Assembly (NCBI GenBank): GCA_013824325.1
Contig: PNNP01000002.1
Coordinates: 1 to 37,688, forward strand
Length of the DNA: 37,688 nucleotides
Direction of reading: 5' to 3'
Source of the DNA: Thermodesulfovibrio sp.
GTDB lineage: Bacteria > Nitrospirota > Thermodesulfovibrionia > Thermodesulfovibrionales > Dissulfurispiraceae
The translations under genes and the position numbers were made by a program. This document shows, in pieces, positions 15,239 through 26,111 of the stretch. Positions within the stretch are counted from its first letter, which is position 1. Each line of letters starts with the position of its first letter. A model generated the notes under the pieces. It was not told the DNA's origin. It made no database searches and worked only from the letters and a program-made list of their open reading frames with translations.

Positions 15239-17299
15239 ATGAAAGGTCATTTCCTGATTATAGGCATACTTGTATTGGTAGTTTCTGTTCTTATTACTTT
15301 AAACATCTTTTTTCAGCAATCACTCCAGATGGAAATTGCAGGACAATTTAATGAGCAGCAATACCTTATCTCAAAATCTATTGCTGAAAATATAGGAGAA
15401 TATATACATTTCTTAAAGGAAGACGTTCTTTCAATTGTCAGTATACTTTCAAAAATGGATATTAACAACAAAAATGACTTTGAGTGGTTAGCAAAAGATG
15501 TTATTAGAAAAAAGATAACAATTAAGACAACCCTTTTAATTTTAAACTCTCGCGGTAATATTGTTTTTATGCAGGGTGAAAGAAACTCCCATTATCCTGT
15601 TCCCTCCGAGATATTAAAACAGACAAAAGGTTTATCCTCGGGTTCCGTAAATATATTAGAAACACCATCCACCCTTCATATTACAGCTACCGTATATAAA
15701 CAAAATATGCTCAAGAATATAATTGTTCTTTCAGTCAGGATAAATGATATAGCGAATCATTTTATTACTGACACATCCACCAGCGAGGATCCACAAAGCG
15801 GGAATTATGTCTGTCTACTCGATAAAAACGGAAACCTCCTTTACCACCCTCCCCAGCAATCTATGGTTGAAAAAAATATTCGCAATGCAGATTCCACGTG
15901 TTTTAAATGTCATTTAAATTTTGAACTTGAGGAGATGATAATAGAAGGCAAAACCAAAAATAACAACAAATATATTGCGCCTTTCAATCAGGACAAGATT
16001 CTGGCATTTTCCAAGGTTGATATAAATAATCTTTTATGGACAGTTATTGTATCAGCGCCTTATTCTGAGGTAACCCGCACCACACAGCAGAGCATGAAGT
16101 TTTACTCCTATCTCATAATTTCCATTTTGATAACAACAATCCTCGTCTCAACAGCGCTCATAGCGTTCAACAAGAAAAGGATACAGGCGAATGAGATAGC
16201 AAAGAGACAAAAGGCAATGGAAAAATACGCCATTGAATTAGAAGAACAGGTAAGCACAAGAACTGAAGAACTTCTTACAGAAAAAGAAAAACTAAATACC
16301 ATCGTTAGCACCATAGGGGCAGGAATCATACTATTCAACAAACAGGGTGAGATTCAATGGGCAAACCAGATGATTAAGGATATGTCAGGTTCCGATGTTG
16401 TAGGAACGACCTGCGATGAATTGTATTCAAAGTGCGAGATTATAGGCCCTTATTCACTGAAAAACGATGTTGAGACAGTAATCATGTCCAACCTGTTTGG
16501 GAAAAAAGGCAAATACTTTCAGGTTATCACTGCGCCGGTGAAGGGAGAAAGCGGTGAAATTTATGCACATATCCAGCTTATACAAGATGTCACGGAAATA
16601 AAGAAGATGGAAGAACAAATGACAACTTCAGAGAAACTTGCTTCAATTGGCAGGCTTGCAGCAGGTATTGCTCATGAGATAGGGAATCCCCTGACTTCCA
16701 TATTTTCCTTCGTACAGATACTGAGGGAGATTGAACAGGAAGAATTCAAGAAAGACAGCCTTAAAACTATTTCATTTCACATAAACAGGATTTCAGAAAT
16801 TCTGAAACAGCTTTCGGGCTTCTCAAAAATGCCTATCGGAGAGCCAAATCTGTGCAAGATAAATGATGTAATAGAAACATCTATTAACCTAATCCAATAT
16901 GATAAAAAGGCAAAAGACATAGATATCAATGAAGCGCTTTCTCCTGCCCTGCCTGATGTTACCGTAGACTGCAACCAGCTTTCACAGGTATTTGTCAACC
17001 TCATACTCAATGCCATAGATGCCATGCCTAATGGAGGGGAACTTACAGTCAGAAGTTTTGTAAAAGAAAATAACATTGTTGTACAATTCAAAGACCAGGG
17101 GATAGGGATTCCAAAGGAAAACCTTATAAAGATATTTGACCCGTTTTATACAACCAAGGAAAAAGGTACGGGATTGGGCCTTGCTGTAAGTTATAATATC
17201 ATCGAAAAAATGAACGGGACACTCACTGTTGAAAGTGAAGTAAATAAAGGGAGTACTTTTAACATTACTATACCGATAAAAAGGAGAAGCGACACATAA
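15239..17299 (+). CDS. Sensor histidine kinase: TM-periplasmic (Cache-like) domain with CXXCH-TM-PAS-HisKA-HATPase
   Basis: N-terminal TM, STCFKCH motif at 15899-15913, second TM, EKLASIGRLAAGIAHEIGNPLTSI H-box, DQGIGIPKENLIKIFDPFYTTKEKGTGLGLAVS. Confidence 0.93.
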   Translation: MKGHFLIIGILVLVVSVLITLNIFFQQSLQMEIAGQFNEQQYLISKSIAENIGEYIHFLKEDVLSIVSILSKMDINNKNDFEWLAKDVIRKKITIKTTLLILNSRGNIVFMQGERNSHYPVPSEILKQTKGLSSGSVNILETPSTLHITATVYKQNMLKNIIVLSVRINDIANHFITDTSTSEDPQSGNYVCLLDKNGNLLYHPPQQSMVEKNIRNADSTCFKCHLNFELEEMIIEGKTKNNNKYIAPFNQDKILAFSKVDINNLLWTVIVSAPYSEVTRTTQQSMKFYSYLIISILITTILVSTALIAFNKKRIQANEIAKRQKAMEKYAIELEEQVSTRTEELLTEKEKLNTIVSTIGAGIILFNKQGEIQWANQMIKDMSGSDVVGTTCDELYSKCEIIGPYSLKNDVETVIMSNLFGKKGKYFQVITAPVKGESGEIYAHIQLIQDVTEIKKMEEQMTTSEKLASIGRLAAGIAHEIGNPLTSIFSFVQILREIEQEEFKKDSLKTISFHINRISEILKQLSGFSKMPIGEPNLCKINDVIETSINLIQYDKKAKDIDINEALSPALPDVTVDCNQLSQVFVNLILNAIDAMPNGGELTVRSFVKENNIVVQFKDQGIGIPKENLIKIFDPFYTTKEKGTGLGLAVSYNIIEKMNGTLTVESEVNKGSTFNITIPIKRRSDT

Positions 17300-17306
17300 A
17301 AAGCAT

Positions 17307-18659
17307 ATGAAACCCAAAATATTAATAGTAGATGATGAACCTGATATATGCAAGGCACTCGAATTTTTGCTGAAGAGAGAGGATTATGATGTAACATCCG
17401 TTAACAGCGGCGAGGATGCAATAGAAAAGATTAAGAAGGTGAGTTTTGATGCAATACTTACCGATATAAGAATGGGAAAAGTTGATGGTATTATGGTGCT
17501 GGAGAAAGCAAGAGAGATATGTCCTGATACTCCGGTAATAATGATGACCGCTTTTGCCTCTATAGAGTCTGCAGTAGAAGCCATGAGAAAGGGGGCATAT
17601 GACTATATCGTTAAACCCTTTCTAAATGAGGAGATAAAACTAACAATAAGGAAAATCCTCGAACAGAGGAGAATAATAAGTGAAAATATTGCTCTTAAGC
17701 AACAAGTCAGCCAGCGTATTGCGTGCAAGGAATTCGTTGCAAACTCAGATGCCATGATAAAAATAATCGAAACCCTTGAAAAGGTGATACCTACAAAGAG
17801 CAATATTATGATTCTGGGAGAGAGCGGAACTGGAAAGGGGCTTATGGCAGAACTCGTCCACTGTAACAGCCAGAGGCGTGACAAGCCCTTCATCAGTATA
17901 AATTGCTCAGCCATCCCCGAAGGACTTCTTGAATCAGAACTCTTTGGTTACAAAAAGGGTGCATTCACCGGTGCTGTATCAGACAAGCTTGGACTAATTC
18001 CTCTTTCCAGCCAGGGAACTCTCTTTCTGGATGAAATAGGCGACATGCCTCCCAACCTGCAGGCAAAACTCCTGAAAGTGCTGGAAACCGGTGAAGTTTA
18101 TCCGTTAGGTGATACAAAACCCAAATTGGTAGACCTGAGAATAATTTCTGCAACTAATGTGGACAACATAGAAAACAGGATAGCAGAAGGAAAATTCAGA
18201 AAAGACCTTTACTGGAGATTAAATGTGATAGAAATAAAGATTCCGCCTTTAAGGGAAAGGTTGGAAGATATAGAGATACTTTCAAAACACTTTCTAAGAA
18301 AATTTACAGAGGAACATAAAAAGGATATAAAAGGGTTTGACCCCCAAACACTCGCTCTGTTCATCGATTACCAATGGCCCGGCAATGTAAGAGAACTAAA
18401 AAACACACTCGAGCGGGCAGTTGTTCTTGCAGAGGGCTCGATAATAACTGTCGCTGACCTGCCGGATAAATTACAGAAAGCCAAATATGAGAGGGAGCCC
18501 TCTACTCTTAAGGCATATCTCGGCAATTATGAAAAACACCTGCTTGTGTCTACTTATAAGGCTCTTAATAAAGACAAGGAAGCAATGGCTAAAACACTTG
18601 GAATAGACCTGGCAACGCTATACAGAAAACTCAAAAAGCATGGAATTGAAACCGAATGA
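17307..18659 (+). CDS. Sigma54-dependent NtrC-family response regulator
   Basis: REC domain (ILIVDDEPDIC, AILTDIRMG), AAA+ with GESGTGKG, GAFTGA motif, Fis-type HTH C-terminus. Confidence 0.96.
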   Translation: MKPKILIVDDEPDICKALEFLLKREDYDVTSVNSGEDAIEKIKKVSFDAILTDIRMGKVDGIMVLEKAREICPDTPVIMMTAFASIESAVEAMRKGAYDYIVKPFLNEEIKLTIRKILEQRRIISENIALKQQVSQRIACKEFVANSDAMIKIIETLEKVIPTKSNIMILGESGTGKGLMAELVHCNSQRRDKPFISINCSAIPEGLLESELFGYKKGAFTGAVSDKLGLIPLSSQGTLFLDEIGDMPPNLQAKLLKVLETGEVYPLGDTKPKLVDLRIISATNVDNIENRIAEGKFRKDLYWRLNVIEIKIPPLRERLEDIEILSKHFLRKFTEEHKKDIKGFDPQTLALFIDYQWPGNVRELKNTLERAVVLAEGSIITVADLPDKLQKAKYEREPSTLKAYLGNYEKHLLVSTYKALNKDKEAMAKTLGIDLATLYRKLKKHGIETE

Positions 18660-18943
18660 AAAAGCCATTTTATATCGGTGCTGCCTTTGGCGGTGTCTTA
18701 GGCATAGTTACAGCTCTTAGCATGGATGTCCTGTTAGGTCAAAATCCAGGAGGAGGCTGGAGTGAGGCTGTGGCAAATGATATGAACCGCCTTTTGAAAA
18801 CTAATTTCTCTACCAATAGTTCTATTGTTATCGCAGGAGTTATTTTTGTAATTGGTCTAATAGGAATTTTCGGGGCATTTGCAGGCGGCATTTTCGGTGT
18901 TATAATCGCCCGTTTTTTTGACAGTCTCACAAAAGAACCTTAA
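18656..18943 (+). CDS. Small membrane protein of unknown function
   Basis: 95 aa with two hydrophobic segments; start overlaps the response regulator stop. Confidence 0.65.
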   Translation: MKKPFYIGAAFGGVLGIVTALSMDVLLGQNPGGGWSEAVANDMNRLLKTNFSTNSSIVIAGVIFVIGLIGIFGAFAGGIFGVIIARFFDSLTKEP

Positions 18944-18950
18944 ACACTTC

Positions 18951-20096
18951 TCAGAATCGGAACATCGGTTTTGCAGTCCTTTTCTCCTCTGGCCAGACTA
19001 TTTCCTTTTCTCCATTTTGCCACTGTATTACAAAAGGGAGGTGTTTTATCTGCCTGCCTGTTTTGTCAACCCCATACCTGCCGATGATGCTCGATGTTTC
19101 TATTATGAATAGATTATCCCTTATCTTATCCTTGAAAAATCCTCGTGTCTTTTTTATAGCAGCCTCTAAGATCTCGCCTGCTGCATAAGCCGTTGCCGAA
19201 TGATATGAAGGTTCCTCATCATAAACTTTCAGGTATGATTCATAAAATGCTCTGGAATCAGGGGAATCCGATATATTTTGATGCACCCAGTGGCTTGTAG
19301 TAAAGACATATTCAGCATCTGCCTGAAGTCTGTTATAGAATGCCCTTGTGGCAGGTCCAACTGTAGCATAGTATGCCATTGGATGCCATCGAATTTTTTT
19401 CAACGACAGCAGGATGTCCACTGCTTCATTAAAATGTCCGCATACAATTAGAACACGGGCATCAAAGGATTTTATTTTTTCAGCTAACGCTTCTAATCTT
19501 TGAGCTCCCTTTCTAAACTTTTCAAATAAAAGAACCTTAAGCCCGGACATTTCAGCGCTCTTTTTTGTCCCATTTGCACTGTCTTCTGAAAAGGGGTCAT
19601 CCGCATACACTATGGCAACCTTTGTGAAACCATGCGTTGCCACCACCTCAATAAAACCTTCTGTATATCTGCTGGCAGGCGTATAAACACCGAAGATATA
19701 TTTATACCCTCTCTGCCATAACCTGTCTGCCGAAGCACCCGATATGAGGATGGGGTAACCATATTTCTCTGTTACAGGCAGTATTGCTTCGGTTATCTCG
19801 CTTGAATAAGGGGAAAAAAGGAAATCAACATGATCTTTCAATATAAGATGTTCATAAATGGCTTTAGCAGTCCGGGGCTCGCTTTTATCATCATATATGA
19901 TAACCCTCACCTTTTTGCCGAGGATGCCGCCTCTGCTGTTTACATCCCTTTCCCACAGCTTAAAACCCTTCATCTGTTTATCAGACATCTCGGAATATTT
20001 ACCTGTCAAACCAAGGGTCAGTCCGATTTTGATAGTGGCTTCGGCTGTTGATGCTAACAAGGAAAATATAAAAAGTATGATGAAAATTTTTCTCAT
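18951..20096 (-). CDS. Periplasmic ABC-type substrate-binding protein (Leu/Ile/Val-binding, Peripla_BP_6-like)
   Basis: Signal peptide; IKIGLTLGLTGKYSEMSDKQMKGFKLWERDVNSRGGILGKKV, GYPILISGASADRLW. Confidence 0.85.
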   Translation of the reverse strand: MRKIFIILFIFSLLASTAEATIKIGLTLGLTGKYSEMSDKQMKGFKLWERDVNSRGGILGKKVRVIIYDDKSEPRTAKAIYEHLILKDHVDFLFSPYSSEITEAILPVTEKYGYPILISGASADRLWQRGYKYIFGVYTPASRYTEGFIEVVATHGFTKVAIVYADDPFSEDSANGTKKSAEMSGLKVLLFEKFRKGAQRLEALAEKIKSFDARVLIVCGHFNEAVDILLSLKKIRWHPMAYYATVGPATRAFYNRLQADAEYVFTTSHWVHQNISDSPDSRAFYESYLKVYDEEPSYHSATAYAAGEILEAAIKKTRGFFKDKIRDNLFIIETSSIIGRYGVDKTGRQIKHLPFVIQWQNGEKEIVWPEEKRTAKPMFRF

Positions 20097-20133: not shown

Positions 20134-20538
20134 TTATTTAATGTCCGGTGCAGCCTTGCCTTTTTCGGCTTTTATTGCACGATCATAGCCTTTAACGCCC
20201 CAGTGACAACGGGTGCACTGGACATTCATGGCAAAACCCATTTTGCCGTCATGACATGAACCGCAATATTTTCGCTTTTGAAACGCCTTGTGATTGAAAT
20301 CTTCATTTTTCTGCGCATTCAATGCTTCCATTTGAAAAAGTTTATCATGACACAGGTTGCAGCTCATACCAAAATCTTCAACATGACTCTTGTGACTGAA
20401 CATTACTGCCTTTACCGGTTTTGTGAAGAGTATGTCCCCGCCATAGCCTGCCTCTTCGGCAATGCTCAAGCGGTTATCAAGGCACAGAAAGGCAACGGAT
20501 GCAATCACTATAAGCAAAAGGGTCATCATCAACCTCAT
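20134..20538 (-). CDS. Triheme c7-type cytochrome c
   Basis: Signal peptide, FSHKSH, CNLCH, CGSCH, CTRCH; start moved to MRLMMTLL preceded by GGAGGTGG. Confidence 0.85.
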   Translation of the reverse strand: MRLMMTLLLIVIASVAFLCLDNRLSIAEEAGYGGDILFTKPVKAVMFSHKSHVEDFGMSCNLCHDKLFQMEALNAQKNEDFNHKAFQKRKYCGSCHDGKMGFAMNVQCTRCHWGVKGYDRAIKAEKGKAAPDIK

Positions 20539-20631
20539 TGAACCACCTCCATAATTAATGTGAAATATCATTTTTTGTAGGGATGTCTGTAAAAACAGGT
20601 ATCTAACTTTTGTTTTGCTTGCCACTGCTGC

Positions 20632-21390
20632 TTATCCTCTCGTATAAAAAATGTTTGGCATGGCTCCTGTTTCTGGCCGTAAAACCCACACGGTTTTGCT
20701 AACTTGGTGTATCATACGGTAGACTTCGTTTTGAGGGTCTGAAAGGTCGCCAAATACACGCACATTGGCAGGACAGGCTTCAGAACATGCTGTTGTGTTA
20801 TGCCCAAGGGATAGACGGGTGTCAAAACAGAAATTGCATTTGTCAACTGAACGGCGCTCGTCATTGTAGTACCTTGCATTGTAAGGACATGCGGTTATAC
20901 ATGTCTTGCAGCCAATACATTTTTTATAATTCATCATCACTATACCACTTTTCTCATCCTTGTACGTCGCCTTTGTAGGACAGCCCATAACACACGGTGG
21001 TCTATTACACTGATTACATAGTACAGGGATGAATTCTCTCTTTTGTTCATCAGATTTAGGGACTTCCCTTTCAAGTATCATGGTGCGGTAGCCATATGAA
21101 GGCACATGATTTGTTTTCACGCATCCCTCCATACAGCGTTCACATCCTATGCAGCGGTTCTGGTATATAAGCATACTGTAATGTGGTTTATACGGATACT
21201 GTGCGGCGAATTCCTTGGGTGAAGCAAATGCTTTATCCACTATGGAAACCAGAGAAAGAATTGAGCCTCCTGCAAGTGCTCCTGTAATTGTCAGCCCGAT
21301 TTTTAAAAACTCGCGCCGTTCCAGCAAGGAAATAGTGTCGAGAGCTTTCTTGTCCTGTTCTTCAAGATTTATCATGTCAAACTTCATCAA
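20632..21390 (-). CDS. 4Fe-4S dicluster ferredoxin subunit (HybA/NrfC/DsrO-like), Tat-type leader
   Basis: RREFLKIGLTITGALAGG; CIGCERCMEGC, CNQCNRPPCVMGCPTKA, CIGCKTCITACPYNA, CSEACPANV. Confidence 0.9.
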   Translation of the reverse strand: MMKFDMINLEEQDKKALDTISLLERREFLKIGLTITGALAGGSILSLVSIVDKAFASPKEFAAQYPYKPHYSMLIYQNRCIGCERCMEGCVKTNHVPSYGYRTMILEREVPKSDEQKREFIPVLCNQCNRPPCVMGCPTKATYKDEKSGIVMMNYKKCIGCKTCITACPYNARYYNDERRSVDKCNFCFDTRLSLGHNTTACSEACPANVRVFGDLSDPQNEVYRMIHQVSKTVWVLRPETGAMPNIFYTRG

Positions 21391-21466
21391 TGCCTCCCCT
21401 ATATTATGAGTTCTCTTATTTTTGCATTTAGCATTCAGTAATCCTTGCCAATGCTGTATTCGTTAA

Positions 21467-21515
21467 AAGGCAGGAACTTACTTTCCTCAAAGCTATTATA
21501 GCAAGTTCCTGCCTT
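21467..21515 (-). terminator. Large inverted repeat between nrfD-like and ferredoxin genes (attenuator or terminator candidate)
   Basis: AAGGCAGGAACTT (21467-21479) / AAGTTCCTGCCTT (21503-21515), 13-bp perfect stem, followed by TT on the minus strand. Confidence 0.5.
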
Positions 21516-21535
21516 CATTAAAAATTGTTAGCATA

Positions 21536-22825
21536 TCAACTTGCTGTTTCTGCTTCCTTGCTTTCCTCAATTGCAAGATGCAGAGGCTCTACAGCATGTT
21601 CGTGTTCCTCTACTTTATGCCCTGTAAATATCTTCTCACCCAGAAGGAAAGTCACACCTACCAGTCCCATGCCGCCCAGAACAATCAGTATCTCATGAAC
21701 AGAAGGCGTATATGATAGCAGTGTCGCATACTCGTTGACTCCCAGCTCATAGAAGACAGGTACTATTTGACCCACTACTACCAGATCATACCTCATAAAG
21801 AAGATGCCGAATATCATCAGTGCAGAACCCGCAAAAAGCATCTTTATGTTCTTGCCGCGGGAAAGCAGGTAGAGTACTAATGGAGCCACCATGCCCACTA
21901 TCACCTCGAGTCCCCAGAAATTCAGGGCATACTGACCGGTTAATAGCGCCATAAATGCTTCTCTTTTTGCCGGGGCGCCGACAAATCCTGTGATAATCTT
22001 CCATGCAGTGAAAAATATAACTGTGCATATCAGAAGAACTCCGACCTTGGATGTAACCTCCACAGCACGTTCCATAGGTTTATCCATCTTCTCACCGTTG
22101 ATTTTATAAGCGAGATATGTGAAAAAGATGATAGCGGCGCATCCTGACATCATTGCAGAGGCGATGAAGTAAATCGGCATGTAGGGTCCATACCAGAACT
22201 CACGCCCGTGGAGCATCCCGAATACAGCGCCCAGATTGCTGTGTGCAGCGATACCGGATATCACACCCATAAATCCCGAGTACATTGCAAACTTGTGTTT
22301 CTCGATCTGCAGAAAGATAAATTCAAGCGTCATAAAGAATAGATATGCACCATACAGTGTTCCCATCCACCAGATATTGGAAGTAAGATTTGGCGAAATA
22401 ACATTGTAAAGAGCCATTCTTAATGGATTTTCGATTTCAAAGAAAATTACAACAAACCCGGCAACGATCGTGAGAATCGACAGAAAAACTGCCCTTTTTG
22501 CTATAGGCATAAAATCCTTAACCCCGAAAACGTGCCCAATAGCTGAAACCAAACAAAGCCCTGTGGATGTGACAACAAAGAAAACATACGTAGATATCAA
22601 AATCCCCCAGGGAATCTCACGGGTAACATTATAAGCATGGCTGTACCCAATAGACATTGCATGAATACCCGCTGCAGCAGCGGCAACTACTACCAGACCA
22701 CAGATGGCTAACCAGATGTAAAAGGTCTTGCCAACGCTTGACAGTCTGTTTACTATGCTCTGCCAGCCCATCAGAACCTTTACTTCTGCTGTTGCTTCTG
22801 AAGCTTTTGTAAGTTCTTCAGCCAT
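21536..22825 (-). CDS. NrfD/PsrC-family integral membrane quinone-interacting subunit
   Basis: Polytopic membrane protein directly upstream of the ferredoxin; YNVTREIPWGILISTYVFFVVTSTGL typical of NrfD. Confidence 0.9.
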   Translation of the reverse strand: MAEELTKASEATAEVKVLMGWQSIVNRLSSVGKTFYIWLAICGLVVVAAAAAGIHAMSIGYSHAYNVTREIPWGILISTYVFFVVTSTGLCLVSAIGHVFGVKDFMPIAKRAVFLSILTIVAGFVVIFFEIENPLRMALYNVISPNLTSNIWWMGTLYGAYLFFMTLEFIFLQIEKHKFAMYSGFMGVISGIAAHSNLGAVFGMLHGREFWYGPYMPIYFIASAMMSGCAAIIFFTYLAYKINGEKMDKPMERAVEVTSKVGVLLICTVIFFTAWKIITGFVGAPAKREAFMALLTGQYALNFWGLEVIVGMVAPLVLYLLSRGKNIKMLFAGSALMIFGIFFMRYDLVVVGQIVPVFYELGVNEYATLLSYTPSVHEILIVLGGMGLVGVTFLLGEKIFTGHKVEEHEHAVEPLHLAIEESKEAETAS

Positions 22826-22889
22826 ATATTCCTCCTTTCAAATTGTTTTATTTTAAGTTAATACCTTTTAAAAGTTCGGTTGCAGGCGC

Positions 22890-23225
22890 TTATGCCTTCT
22901 TCTCTTTTGTCTTCAGCTCGATTCCTACTGTCCTGCCTGCCCTAACAACATCAACAACCTGCCCTAATAACCAGCCAATAAGTGATAATCCCACAACAAA
23001 AACAAGTCCTGTTACTAACACACCCAGTACCATAGAGATACCTACTACAATCCTCGGCAGTACCGCCATGCCAAGAGGGGTGCCAAAGATATGGCCTGCC
23101 AATTTAAGTCCAAGTACACCTCCAATAAAAGAACTGGGTAACAAGCCGATTATTGCAAACATCAGAAGACCTATCCCTGCTCCTATGTATAATCCTTTCT
23201 TTGCTATGTTATCTTTTGTTTTCAT
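22890..23225 (-). CDS. Small membrane protein, paralog A
   Basis: KKGLYIGAGIGLLMFAIIGLLPSSFIGGVLGLKLAGHIFG; tandem paralog of the next gene. Confidence 0.75.
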   Translation of the reverse strand: MKTKDNIAKKGLYIGAGIGLLMFAIIGLLPSSFIGGVLGLKLAGHIFGTPLGMAVLPRIVVGISMVLGVLVTGLVFVVGLSLIGWLLGQVVDVVRAGRTVGIELKTKEKKA

Positions 23226-23260
23226 TTCTCTATCCTCCTTCTTATTTTTAACAATAACAG

Positions 23261-23566
23261 CTAAGCCAGTTTATGTGCTCCCCTATGTCTTGTTATTATT
23301 CCAATATGACCTATTCCCCAACCAACTAATGACGTACCGAGAACGAATACTACTCCGGTTACGAGAATGCCTAATACCATTGATATACCTACAATTGCCC
23401 TGAAAAGCAATGCAGTATCAACACCCGTTCCCATTATATAGGCTGCTATCTTCAACCCGAGCACACCTCCAACAAAAGAACTCGGCAACAGCCCGATTAA
23501 TATAAACAGTATAAGCCCCACAGTTGCTCCGATGTATAAACCCTTTTTTGTTATGTTCGTTTTCAT
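23261..23566 (-). CDS. Small membrane protein, paralog B
   Basis: TKKGLYIGATVGLILFILIGLLPSSFVGGVLGLKIAAYIMG; RBS AAGGAGG. Confidence 0.75.
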   Translation of the reverse strand: MKTNITKKGLYIGATVGLILFILIGLLPSSFVGGVLGLKIAAYIMGTGVDTALLFRAIVGISMVLGILVTGVVFVLGTSLVGWGIGHIGIITRHRGAHKLA

Positions 23567-23601
23567 CTCTCTTGCCTCCTTCTTTCAATTTACTTATATT
23601 C

Positions 23602-23618
23602 ATGCAGATTTTATGCCA
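23602..23618 (-). promoter_or_regulatory. Putative sigma54 (-24/-12) promoter
   Basis: Minus strand TGGCATA-AAAT-CTGCAT; GG and GC dinucleotides at exact -24/-12 spacing, about 36 nt upstream of the start codon at 23566. Confidence 0.6.
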
Positions 23619-23742
23619 GCATTTATATCGTTGATTTTTTTAGATTTTTAAGCGCATATTCTTTGCATTTTTGCAAAAAATTATTAATACTTTGGGCAAA
23701 ACTGCGAAAAATGAAGGGATTTAAAAAGAATGGCTCTGCGGA

Positions 23743-24591
23743 TTAAAATATGTAACGGAATGCCCTTGGGTCTCTGTAAGAATGACATTCGCTGCAAAGT
23801 ATTCTCGTTTTTGATTCGCCAATAGTCCATGTGTGGGATTTATGACAGTATATGCAACCAATCTTTCGTTTCGTATGTAATCCATGCTGCCCAAGAGCAG
23901 CCTCGGTACGGTGACACCCTGTCGTACATGTAATATCAGTGGGCTTGACCCTTGTATGCATTTTGTGGCAATAATGACAGAAAAGTCCAGACATAGGACC
24001 CTTTTTAGGAATACTACTATGACATCTGATGCATTTATCCTTCGATACCATGGATGGAGGCTTTCTTGAAAAAGAATGACATTTCAGGCAGGAAAACTCC
24101 TCCATGCTGATACCGTGCACACCTTTATCCTGATGGCATTTTTGACAAGCATCTTCATTCGGAGGGAAATTATGCAATGTAGGCATATGACATGTTTTGC
24201 AATCAATCTTCTTTACCGCGTAATGTTTTGCATGGCCATATGATTTACTCGGGGTCACAGACCCCTGAGATATTATATCCATATGACAGTTCCTGCATTC
24301 CTGCCATGGTGTTGTACGACCATGTGTCACGGTAATGGGGTTTTTGCCTGTTATGACATAAGACATCAGACGAAGATTTTGTTCGATGTTACCCAGTTGA
24401 TGGCACTTCTGGCATAGGACATCCCTGTGTTTCCCGTTCAGCCAGTCTGCATGCGCTCCTTTAACCAGATGACATGAAGCACAAAAGTCCGGGTCATCCT
24501 GCGTATATCTATAATAGCTATAGCCGTAAATAAACAGACTTATCACTATTACGGCAAGTATAAAACCTTTTACATGATCGGCAAAGCGCAT
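23743..24591 (-). CDS. Membrane-anchored multiheme cytochrome c (10 CXXCH plus one CX3CH)
   Basis: N-terminal TM then CASCH, CQKCH, CRNCH, CKTCH, CQKCH, CLKCH, CIRCH, CHYCH, CTTGCH, CIYCH, CSECH; NapC/NirT-like N-terminus. Confidence 0.9.
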   Translation of the reverse strand: MRFADHVKGFILAVIVISLFIYGYSYYRYTQDDPDFCASCHLVKGAHADWLNGKHRDVLCQKCHQLGNIEQNLRLMSYVITGKNPITVTHGRTTPWQECRNCHMDIISQGSVTPSKSYGHAKHYAVKKIDCKTCHMPTLHNFPPNEDACQKCHQDKGVHGISMEEFSCLKCHSFSRKPPSMVSKDKCIRCHSSIPKKGPMSGLFCHYCHKMHTRVKPTDITCTTGCHRTEAALGQHGLHTKRKIGCIYCHKSHTWTIGESKTRILCSECHSYRDPRAFRYIF

Positions 24592-24619
24592 AGAAAGCTC
24601 TTAATCCGTCTCCGTATTA

Positions 24620-25627
24620 TCAAACTGACTTCTTTGCTTCCGACAGGTCTTCCAGTATTTTCAGCTTTGTTATCTCACCAAGTGCTATCAGTGTATCGCC
24701 TGACTTTATAGTGCTGCGGAAAGTAGGATTGAATCTCATTTCACCTGTAGCCCGTTTTATTGCAACTATTATAACACCCAGTTCCCTGCCAATGCCGCAC
24801 TGGTCAAGTGTTAATCCTATAAGTTTGGAATTCTCAGGAATAACGACTTCCTCCATCTGCAATTCAATATTGCCGGTTTTTGTGGCAAATTCAATAAAAT
24901 CAACAACTGCAGGTCTCAATATTGTATGCGCTATCCTGAGACCGCCGATATGATATGGCGAGACAACCTTATTTGCGCCTGCCCTTAACAGCTTGTTTTC
25001 AGAGCCTTCCTCTCCTGCCCTTGCCACTATGAACAGGTTGGGATTCAGTTCCCTTGCACTCAATACCACATAAAGATTCTCTGCATCAGTCGGCAGGACG
25101 GATATCAAACCTTTCGCCTTTTCTATGCCTACTTCCCTTAAAATTTCATCGCTCGTTGCATCTCCTTCAATAATCAGAATATCCACTCTTCCTGCTACAA
25201 CTTCAGAGTTTTTTTCAATAACAACAAATTTTAAGCCCTTGCTCTTCAGTTCCCTGCAAATTATCCTGCCCATCCTGCCATAGCCACAGATAACATAATG
25301 GTTATTTAATTCCTTAATTTTCTTTTCCAATCTCTTCCTCCCGAATATTTCTTGAAGTTCCCCCTCTAAAATAGTCCTTGCACCGGTACTGAGTGCATAC
25401 AACATAGTTCCCACGCCGACTATTATAAGAATAATGGTAAACACTATTCCTTTAGGAGATAAGTCATGAATCTCTCTAAATCCGACAGTGGTAAGGGTTA
25501 TTATTGTCATATAAATTGAATCGAGAAATCCCCACCCTTCTATGAACATATAACCTGCAGCTCCGATGGAAATAACGGAAATTAGCAGCAACAAGGTAAG
25601 CATCACTCTTTTCCTTAGGGTTTCCAA
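24620..25627 (-). CDS. Potassium channel with TrkA-N/TrkA-C (RCK) domains
   Basis: Two TM with pore TIITLTTVGFREI; VICGYGRMGRIICREL Rossmann motif. Confidence 0.9.
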   Translation of the reverse strand: METLRKRVMLTLLLLISVISIGAAGYMFIEGWGFLDSIYMTIITLTTVGFREIHDLSPKGIVFTIILIIVGVGTMLYALSTGARTILEGELQEIFGRKRLEKKIKELNNHYVICGYGRMGRIICRELKSKGLKFVVIEKNSEVVAGRVDILIIEGDATSDEILREVGIEKAKGLISVLPTDAENLYVVLSARELNPNLFIVARAGEEGSENKLLRAGANKVVSPYHIGGLRIAHTILRPAVVDFIEFATKTGNIELQMEEVVIPENSKLIGLTLDQCGIGRELGVIIVAIKRATGEMRFNPTFRSTIKSGDTLIALGEITKLKILEDLSEAKKSV

Positions 25628-25631
25628 AAAA

Positions 25632-26111
25632 TTACATCTCCTTTAAGATACTGCCTATCTTTGCATCTATCATTTTTTTATGAGACCCTTCCCAGTAAAC
25701 TTTACCACAATCCATGCACTTGAAAAAAGAATTGAAATTCAAAAAAACATACTCGGGGATATCATTTGATACAGCTTCTCTGTCTGCTGATAAAAGCTCG
25801 CCGTTACATTCTGTGCAGCGCGGCATTATTTCTTCTGTTCCGGTGCTGGTAAAGTTTTTGAGAGCTTTTAAAAGTTCTTTTAGCTGGCCGGCTGTGTCAT
25901 TGGATTTTAAAAGGATATAACTGTTGATTTTCCTGCTCCCTGCAATGCCGGAATCCCTTGTCAAAAGTATCCGCTCCTCCTGCTTTGCAATCCTTATTAA
26001 CTCATTGTCGTCTATCTCTCTGAAATAAAGGGTGTCAAAACCCAGGATTCTGAGCCATTTTGAAAGGCTTCCCAACATCACATCTGAAATAAAGCGAGGC
26101 TGGCTGGACAT
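25632..26111 (-). CDS. Mut7-C RNase-domain protein
   Basis: FISDVMLGSLSKWLRILGFDTLYF, LLTRDSG, zinc ribbon CTECN...CMDCGKVYWEGSH. Confidence 0.85.
   Translation of the reverse strand: MSSQPRFISDVMLGSLSKWLRILGFDTLYFREIDDNELIRIAKQEERILLTRDSGIAGSRKINSYILLKSNDTAGQLKELLKALKNFTSTGTEEIMPRCTECNGELLSADREAVSNDIPEYVFLNFNSFFKCMDCGKVYWEGSHKKMIDAKIGSILKEM

Follow-up and report, generated by a model that had tools for sequence, protein, structure and literature searches.

Cbc4 (CbcSTU) of Geobacter consists of a c-type cytochrome, a CbcT/DsrO-like Fe-S protein and an NrfD-type protein and has no catalytic subunit (PMC11434368, PMC10989804). In QrcABCD, a class III-type cytochrome at the periplasmic side is linked to a 10-helix NrfD-type subunit and an Fe-S protein with four clusters, and alternative complex III is also a quinol:cytochrome oxidoreductase. 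We analysed a related locus on contig PNNP01000002.1 of a Thermodesulfovibrio sp., a sulfur-cycling member of the Thermodesulfovibrionales (assembly GCA_013824325.1); the whole stretch studied, 37,688 nt, is called the window. Its minus-strand operon from 23566 to 20134 codes for two small membrane proteins, an NrfD protein, an Fe-S protein and a c7-type cytochrome. With a probability of about 0.7, we read this operon as encoding a cytoplasmic-membrane quinone:cytochrome c oxidoreductase that has no catalytic subunit and is under redox-sensing sigma-54 control.

Gene families were assigned by searches with Pfam and NCBIfam profiles, and the bit scores were compared with the family cut-offs. 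The six open reading frames between 20134 and 24591 were all confirmed on the minus strand, where the order from 5' to 3' is K+ channel, 11-heme cytochrome, small protein A, small protein B, NrfD, Fe-S protein, c7 cytochrome and an ABC-type substrate-binding protein. A first-pass annotation, made from the letters alone, had described six neighbouring genes without a catalytic subunit. The reading frames, families and heme and cysteine motifs agree with this for the window, in which no catalytic subunit is encoded. Since the host assembly is 66.6% complete, the absence cannot be claimed for the whole genome, and the host metabolism was sampled by targeted searches only.

The NrfD protein (21536-22825, minus strand) was named as such in the first-pass annotation, and it reached 103.6 bits with the Pfam NrfD profile (cut-off 25.8). 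Its predicted model has 10 long helices, taken as transmembrane, and the closest solved fold is ActC of alternative complex III (TM 0.73). In the alignment with DsrP, E130 and the invariant S149 fall on the Asp and the Ser of its quinone site, the positions of which were taken from PMC8076601; Ser138 of QrcD, the equivalent of S149, is essential (PMC13059093). We defined the NrfD/PsrC superfamily by a Pfam NrfD score above the cut-off, 8-10 transmembrane helices and an acid and a serine at the P-side quinone site. By all of these features the protein is a member of the superfamily and a predicted quinone-binding subunit.

The Fe-S protein (20632-21387, minus strand) was recognised by the first-pass annotation as a twin-arginine (Tat) type 4Fe-4S protein. 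In 15 homologues its 16 cysteines, which would be ligands for four [4Fe-4S] clusters, and the RRxFLK motif are invariant. Dicluster Fe-S domains were found in the family search, and the nearest solved structure is PsrB (2vpw, 159 bits). From the ribosome-binding site in the sequence, translation likely starts at ATG 21387. Its predicted electron partner is the c7-type cytochrome (20134-20538, minus strand; PF14522), for which a GGAGG upstream makes ATG 20538 the likely start. It has three CXXCH motifs and scored 68 bits with TIGR04257 (cut-off 40), as expected of the c7-like triheme protein that had been annotated. The homologues almost always contain 3, 6, 9 or 12 hemes, with one case of 7, and judged from these counts the subunit grows by triheme steps. 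The 15-heme entry L078_4259 was excluded from the counts as a neighbouring gene that is not the subunit. The closest solved relative is the 12-heme c7 polymer 3OV0, which we take to be GSU1996 of Geobacter (100 bits with the window protein, 216 bits with a 9-heme homologue). This polymer is not linked to a quinone complex in the material examined, and the window copy differs from it as a single triheme module. For Nhc, which combines a nine-heme c3-type cytochrome with Fe-S, NrfD and a small membrane protein, the comparison was made with the cytochrome: the nine-heme homologues resemble c7 polymers rather than the solved nine-heme cytochrome.

An NrfD orthologue of at least 60% identity was found in 12 of 60 genomes of the same family and order, host included; the 60 are mostly draft metagenome-assembled genomes (MAGs). 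A scan of named genomes gave 20 NrfD loci, in Thermodesulfovibrionales, other Nitrospirota, Geobacter, Trichlorobacter, Smithella and MAGs labelled as Thermoleophilia. Gene maps showed NrfD-FeS-c7 as the constant core, contiguous in Nitrospirota, Desulfuromonadia, Smithella and the Thermoleophilia-labelled MAGs. Judged from these maps, NrfD-FeS-c7 is the conserved unit, from which both the small pair and the 11-heme cytochrome can be separated. The six-protein module of the first-pass annotation was therefore kept in its core and given up with respect to the small pair and the 11-heme cytochrome as obligate parts. The synteny of the small pair with NrfD, which had been suggested as a check, was seen in most Nitrospirota, where the pair precedes the core; in Desulfuromonadia, Smithella and the Thermoleophilia-labelled MAGs it does not.

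The subunits were then compared with the described complexes. For Qrc, the equivalog scores remained below the cut-offs (QrcA 22.9 of 180 bits, QrcC 88.7 of 400), and no gene for QrcB, the cofactor-less molybdopterin-type subunit, was found in the operon or the homologous loci. The scores were also below the cut-offs for DsrMKJOP (DsrP 45 of 350 bits, DsrO 162 of 200), and the NrfD protein falls into a separate clade. HmcC scored 69.4 of 550 bits, with no gene for a 16-heme HmcA; NrfC scored 167 of 377.6 bits, with no NrfA in the locus; the NCBIfam TtrB equivalog also scored below its cut-off. In contrast to alternative complex III, the operon has no genes for ActB, ActD, ActE and ActF and a single NrfD. 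Only two NrfD proteins are encoded in the 66.6% complete host assembly, and the other one is DsrP. The first-pass likeness to Nrf, Qrc and Hmc, and to the Dsr and alternative complex III proteins named for its phylogeny, does not amount to membership, each complex failing on a defining feature that was tested. Cbc4 differs in its cytochrome and gene order: CbcS-2 of G. metallireducens is a 4-heme protein and the genes are ordered S-T-U (PMC10989804), whereas the present cytochromes have 3, 6, 7, 9 or 12 hemes and the order is NrfD-FeS-cytochrome. The distinction from Cbc4 is drawn from these described features. The NrfD clade occurs in about 15 of 98 Desulfuromonadia with 52-65% identity, although a high conservation of cbcSTU within Geobacteraceae has been described (PMC11434368). 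Because the tests for Qrc, Hmc, Dsr, Nrf and alternative complex III fail and the Cbc4 cytochrome differs, the locus appears to encode a new variant among the NrfD-type quinone:cytochrome oxidoreductases, which would work like Qrc or Cbc4.

The best sigma-54 site of the window, TGGCATAAAATCTGCA (23603-23618, minus strand; score 30.5 of 33), precedes the start of small protein A by 36 nt. Sites scoring at least 29 were found upstream in 28 of 41 small-pair loci, several of the others having overlong predicted starts, and in none of the 5 NrfD loci without the small pair; the background for sites of at least 30 is 0.022 per kb of strand over all loci. An exact match to TTTGCA-N4-TGCAAA, the putative activator site TTTGCAAAAATGCAAA (23662-23677, minus strand), is located 59 nt before the promoter. 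A second putative site with three mismatches (23693-23708, minus strand) follows 31 nt further upstream. Within 180 nt upstream of 29 promoters the dyad occurs 53 times with at most two mismatches. In 26 of the 29 a copy lies 57-60 nt before the promoter, usually with a second one about 20 or 30 nt further. Its density upstream of the small pair is 10.2 per kb versus 0.12 per kb overall. As the 29 promoters were picked mainly for a good sigma-54 site, it is the dyad that is the independent observation. A literature search for the tandem motif gave no match. The tandem dyads are common to NrfD loci, to loci with a CbcL-like cytochrome b module and to lone small pairs, and appear to define one regulon that spans unrelated quinone modules. 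The shared promoter is a sequence handle for finding more members. The same dyads were observed upstream of a protein of about 378 residues with a signal peptide and one heme motif (L072:5890-5926, L081:12901-12937), which is likely a further member.

On the plus strand, a sensor histidine kinase (15239-17299; dCache_1, HisKA, HATPase) has a periplasmic Cache-like domain and one c-heme motif, CXXCH, that is present in 12 of 12 orthologues. It is followed by an NtrC-type sigma-54 response regulator (17307-18659; Sigma54_activat, Response_reg, HTH_8). From their proximity and conservation, the two are likely the pair acting on this promoter. Since the promoter separates the small pair from the 11-heme gene, the six genes probably form two transcription units with the 11-heme gene apart. 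They do follow one another, as the first-pass annotation had it.

The NrfD-FeS module is replaced in six loci of relatives (L089, L091, L093, L094, L098 and L099). Downstream of the small pair, these loci encode a 7-heme protein, a cytochrome b (PF01292) and a c7 protein with 6 or 9 hemes. The 11-heme gene precedes the pair in most of them, and parts of the cassette of a 95-residue protein, regulator and kinase adjoin several. The 7-heme protein and the cytochrome b match the two halves of the 9-heme/cytochrome b fusions of the CbcL type in Desulfuromonadia, with 28-37% and 35-41% identity, respectively. This alternative was at first suspected to be CbcBA; a comparison that covered the CbcL-type fusions showed similarity to them in 84 of 96 Desulfuromonadia. 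Scored as present above 330 bits, the cytochrome b alternative occurs in 25 of the 60 genomes and NrfD in 12, and no genome has both (Fisher p 7e-4). The 11-heme cytochrome was found in 34 of 37 genomes with either module versus 4 of 23 without (p 5e-9), and the small pair in 30 of 37 versus 2 of 23 (p 3e-8). Since the CbcL-like module replaces NrfD-FeS in the same regulon, the two appear to be alternatives for one task. CbcL of G. sulfurreducens oxidises menaquinol at low potential (PMC12307469). It likely works at the same place as the NrfD module but is an unrelated membrane protein, in which a diheme cytochrome b is joined to nine c hemes. Regulation and mutual exclusion tie the NrfD clade to CbcL, which has a known physiological role.

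In the proposed mechanism NrfD would bind menaquinone or menaquinol close to the periplasmic face, the Tat Fe-S protein with its four clusters would accept the electrons, and the c7 cytochrome would hand them on to periplasmic carriers. The three proteins would assemble as one complex. As a rule, electrons probably pass from menaquinol into the pool of periplasmic cytochromes, and the complex is likely reversible. The c-type-heme kinase would sense the periplasmic redox state and the NtrC-type regulator would bind the tandem TTTGCA-N4-TGCAAA sites, so that sigma-54 polymerase transcribes the small pair together with the quinone module. The occurrence in Desulfuromonadia and Smithella and the equivalence to CbcL favour the quinol-oxidising direction; Dsr-bearing hosts, the missing Qrc and the lack of MtrB porins would allow the reverse. 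That the locus could be a distinct quinol:cytochrome oxidoreductase had been proposed in the first-pass annotation, and the enzyme-free core in many genomes and its own NrfD clade support this. Several points weigh against our reading. The co-occurrence p values are uncorrected for relatedness and come mostly from draft MAGs. The links from the regulator to the sites and from the kinase to heme sensing are drawn from proximity and conservation. CbcL homologues are thought to run both ways (PMC6295460). Finally, dsrA was over the cut-off in 54 of the 60 relatives and QrcA in none, which also fits the quinone-reducing direction.

The latter counts are also consistent with a Qrc-like menaquinone reductase, in which a periplasmic hydrogenase or formate dehydrogenase would deliver electrons through soluble cytochromes and c7 to menaquinone and so feed Dsr-based sulfur metabolism. 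We regard this as possible but the less probable role. DsrAB is encoded in the host, as is a DsrMKJOP set on another contig (C16), some of the best sub-threshold matches to the QrcA profile are c7 subunits, and an MtrB-type porin is present in just 1 of the 12 NrfD-bearing genomes. CbcBA was proposed to run in the quinone-reducing direction in Seep-SRB2, which is without Qrc (PMC10553843). However, in a Thermodesulfovibrio study the entry point in the periplasm was attributed to Hmc (PMC5165239). Where the CbcL-like alternative has been studied it oxidises quinol, and the core is also found in Desulfuromonadia and Smithella. To our knowledge, Dsr respiration is not the rule in these two groups, which argues against the Qrc-like role. 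The clade is a test case for what NrfD-FeS pairs do alone and for how sulfur-metabolising Nitrospirota without Qrc link periplasmic electrons to menaquinone. The low number of porins is at the same time a difficulty for the proposal that the complex is the inner-membrane end of a Cbc4-like extracellular electron transfer chain that would include the 11-heme cytochrome and an outer-membrane conduit not seen so far. MtrB/PioB porins are absent from the host and 11 of the 12 NrfD-bearing genomes in a search limited to this conduit type, they show no association with NrfD, and the window showed no gene for an outer-membrane conduit. Although the three kinds of subunits are those of CbcSTU (PMC11434368), the c7 subunit is related to the 3OV0 polymer and the alternative module is CbcL-like, we consider such a chain unlikely. 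The extracellular conduit considered in the first-pass annotation is unsupported as an outer-membrane conduit.

A different assignment would make the proteins subunits of a molybdopterin reductase of the Psr or thiosulfate-reductase type with its catalytic gene at another place in the genome. The NrfD tree, which the first-pass annotation had suggested, bears on this. The NrfD proteins of the present type form a monophyletic clade of 32 rows (support 100/99) distant from DsrP; this clade without a catalytic subunit is defined here, and no name for it was found in the literature searched. Its neighbours in the tree (90/79), and nearest relatives by sequence (38-50% identity), are NrfDs of PsrABC-like complexes in Desulfuromonadia that adjoin a Tat molybdopterin oxidoreductase of about 735-780 residues with confirmed molybdopterin domains. 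In contrast to these complexes, a molybdopterin gene is absent from the NrfD-FeS-c7 cluster in every mapped locus of the clade. The Fe-S protein has about 250 residues versus 184-190 and its own Tat signal, and the c7 gene occupies the place of the enzyme. Synteny thus already disfavours a molybdopterin reductase, which we consider very improbable. Given the midpoint root, the position of the clade beside the molybdopterin-linked NrfDs suggests that the quinone:cytochrome oxidoreductase arose from an enzyme-bearing complex by swapping the catalytic subunit for a c7 wire. Tentatively, and at slightly less than even odds, one redox-sensing sigma-54 regulon of Thermodesulfovibrionales would offer a slot that is filled either by a CbcL-like cytochrome b or by NrfD-FeS with a c7 wire of 3-12 hemes, the latter derived from a molybdoenzyme by this swap.

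Small proteins A (23261-23566, minus strand), the first gene product of the sigma-54 operon, and B (22890-23225, minus strand) are glycine-rich and 59% identical in the alignment, and the paralogy stated in the first-pass annotation is thereby confirmed. No Pfam or NCBIfam family matched them, and a fold search with a model of moderate quality gave no match. The pair is present in 32 of the 60 related genomes, often in its own sigma-54 operon (L095, L100, L106-L108, L120-L122). As an obligate subunit of the complex it was rejected, because the pair stands alone behind its own promoter and the core exists without it. Like the 11-heme cytochrome, it is found with the CbcL-like module or alone.

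The co-distributed 11-heme cytochrome (23743-24591, minus strand) contains 10 CXXCH motifs and one CX3CH. All are kept in full-length homologues, which gives the 11 hemes. Its N-terminus is NapC/NrfH-like (TIGR03153 35.6 bits, NrfH 2j7a 22.8 bits), so that the annotated anchored cytochrome of about 11 hemes was recovered; the TIGR03153 equivalog score is below the cut-off of 134.2 and the similarity is limited to the N-terminus. The gene adjoins the locus in G000, G004, G018 and G034 and is on another contig in several more genomes. The order rpoC, Mut7-C, K+ channel and 11-heme cytochrome (23743-26111 in the window) is conserved in L093, L094, L098 and L099, whichever quinone module comes next.

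Some further features were noted. Downstream of the regulator, a small two-helix membrane protein (18656-18943, plus strand) without a Pfam match lies beside the regulator in many relatives. A soluble protein of about 119 residues is encoded near NrfD in many relatives (L066:3652-4008; equivalents in L067, L068, L072, L074, L083 and L084); it is not in the window and gave no family over the Pfam cut-off. The ABC-type substrate-binding protein (18951-20096) is on the same strand 38 nt downstream of the c7 gene and perhaps co-transcribed here; in the mapped relatives no such gene was seen in this place. The 145-nt gap between the NrfD and Fe-S genes folds at -37.9 kcal/mol (z -3.96) and contains a 17-bp hairpin (21466-21516, minus strand) that ends in a short run of T. 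Among the mapped close relatives this gap is far shorter and the hairpin was not seen, which makes it so far specific to the host genome; it is possibly an attenuator or a mobile element.

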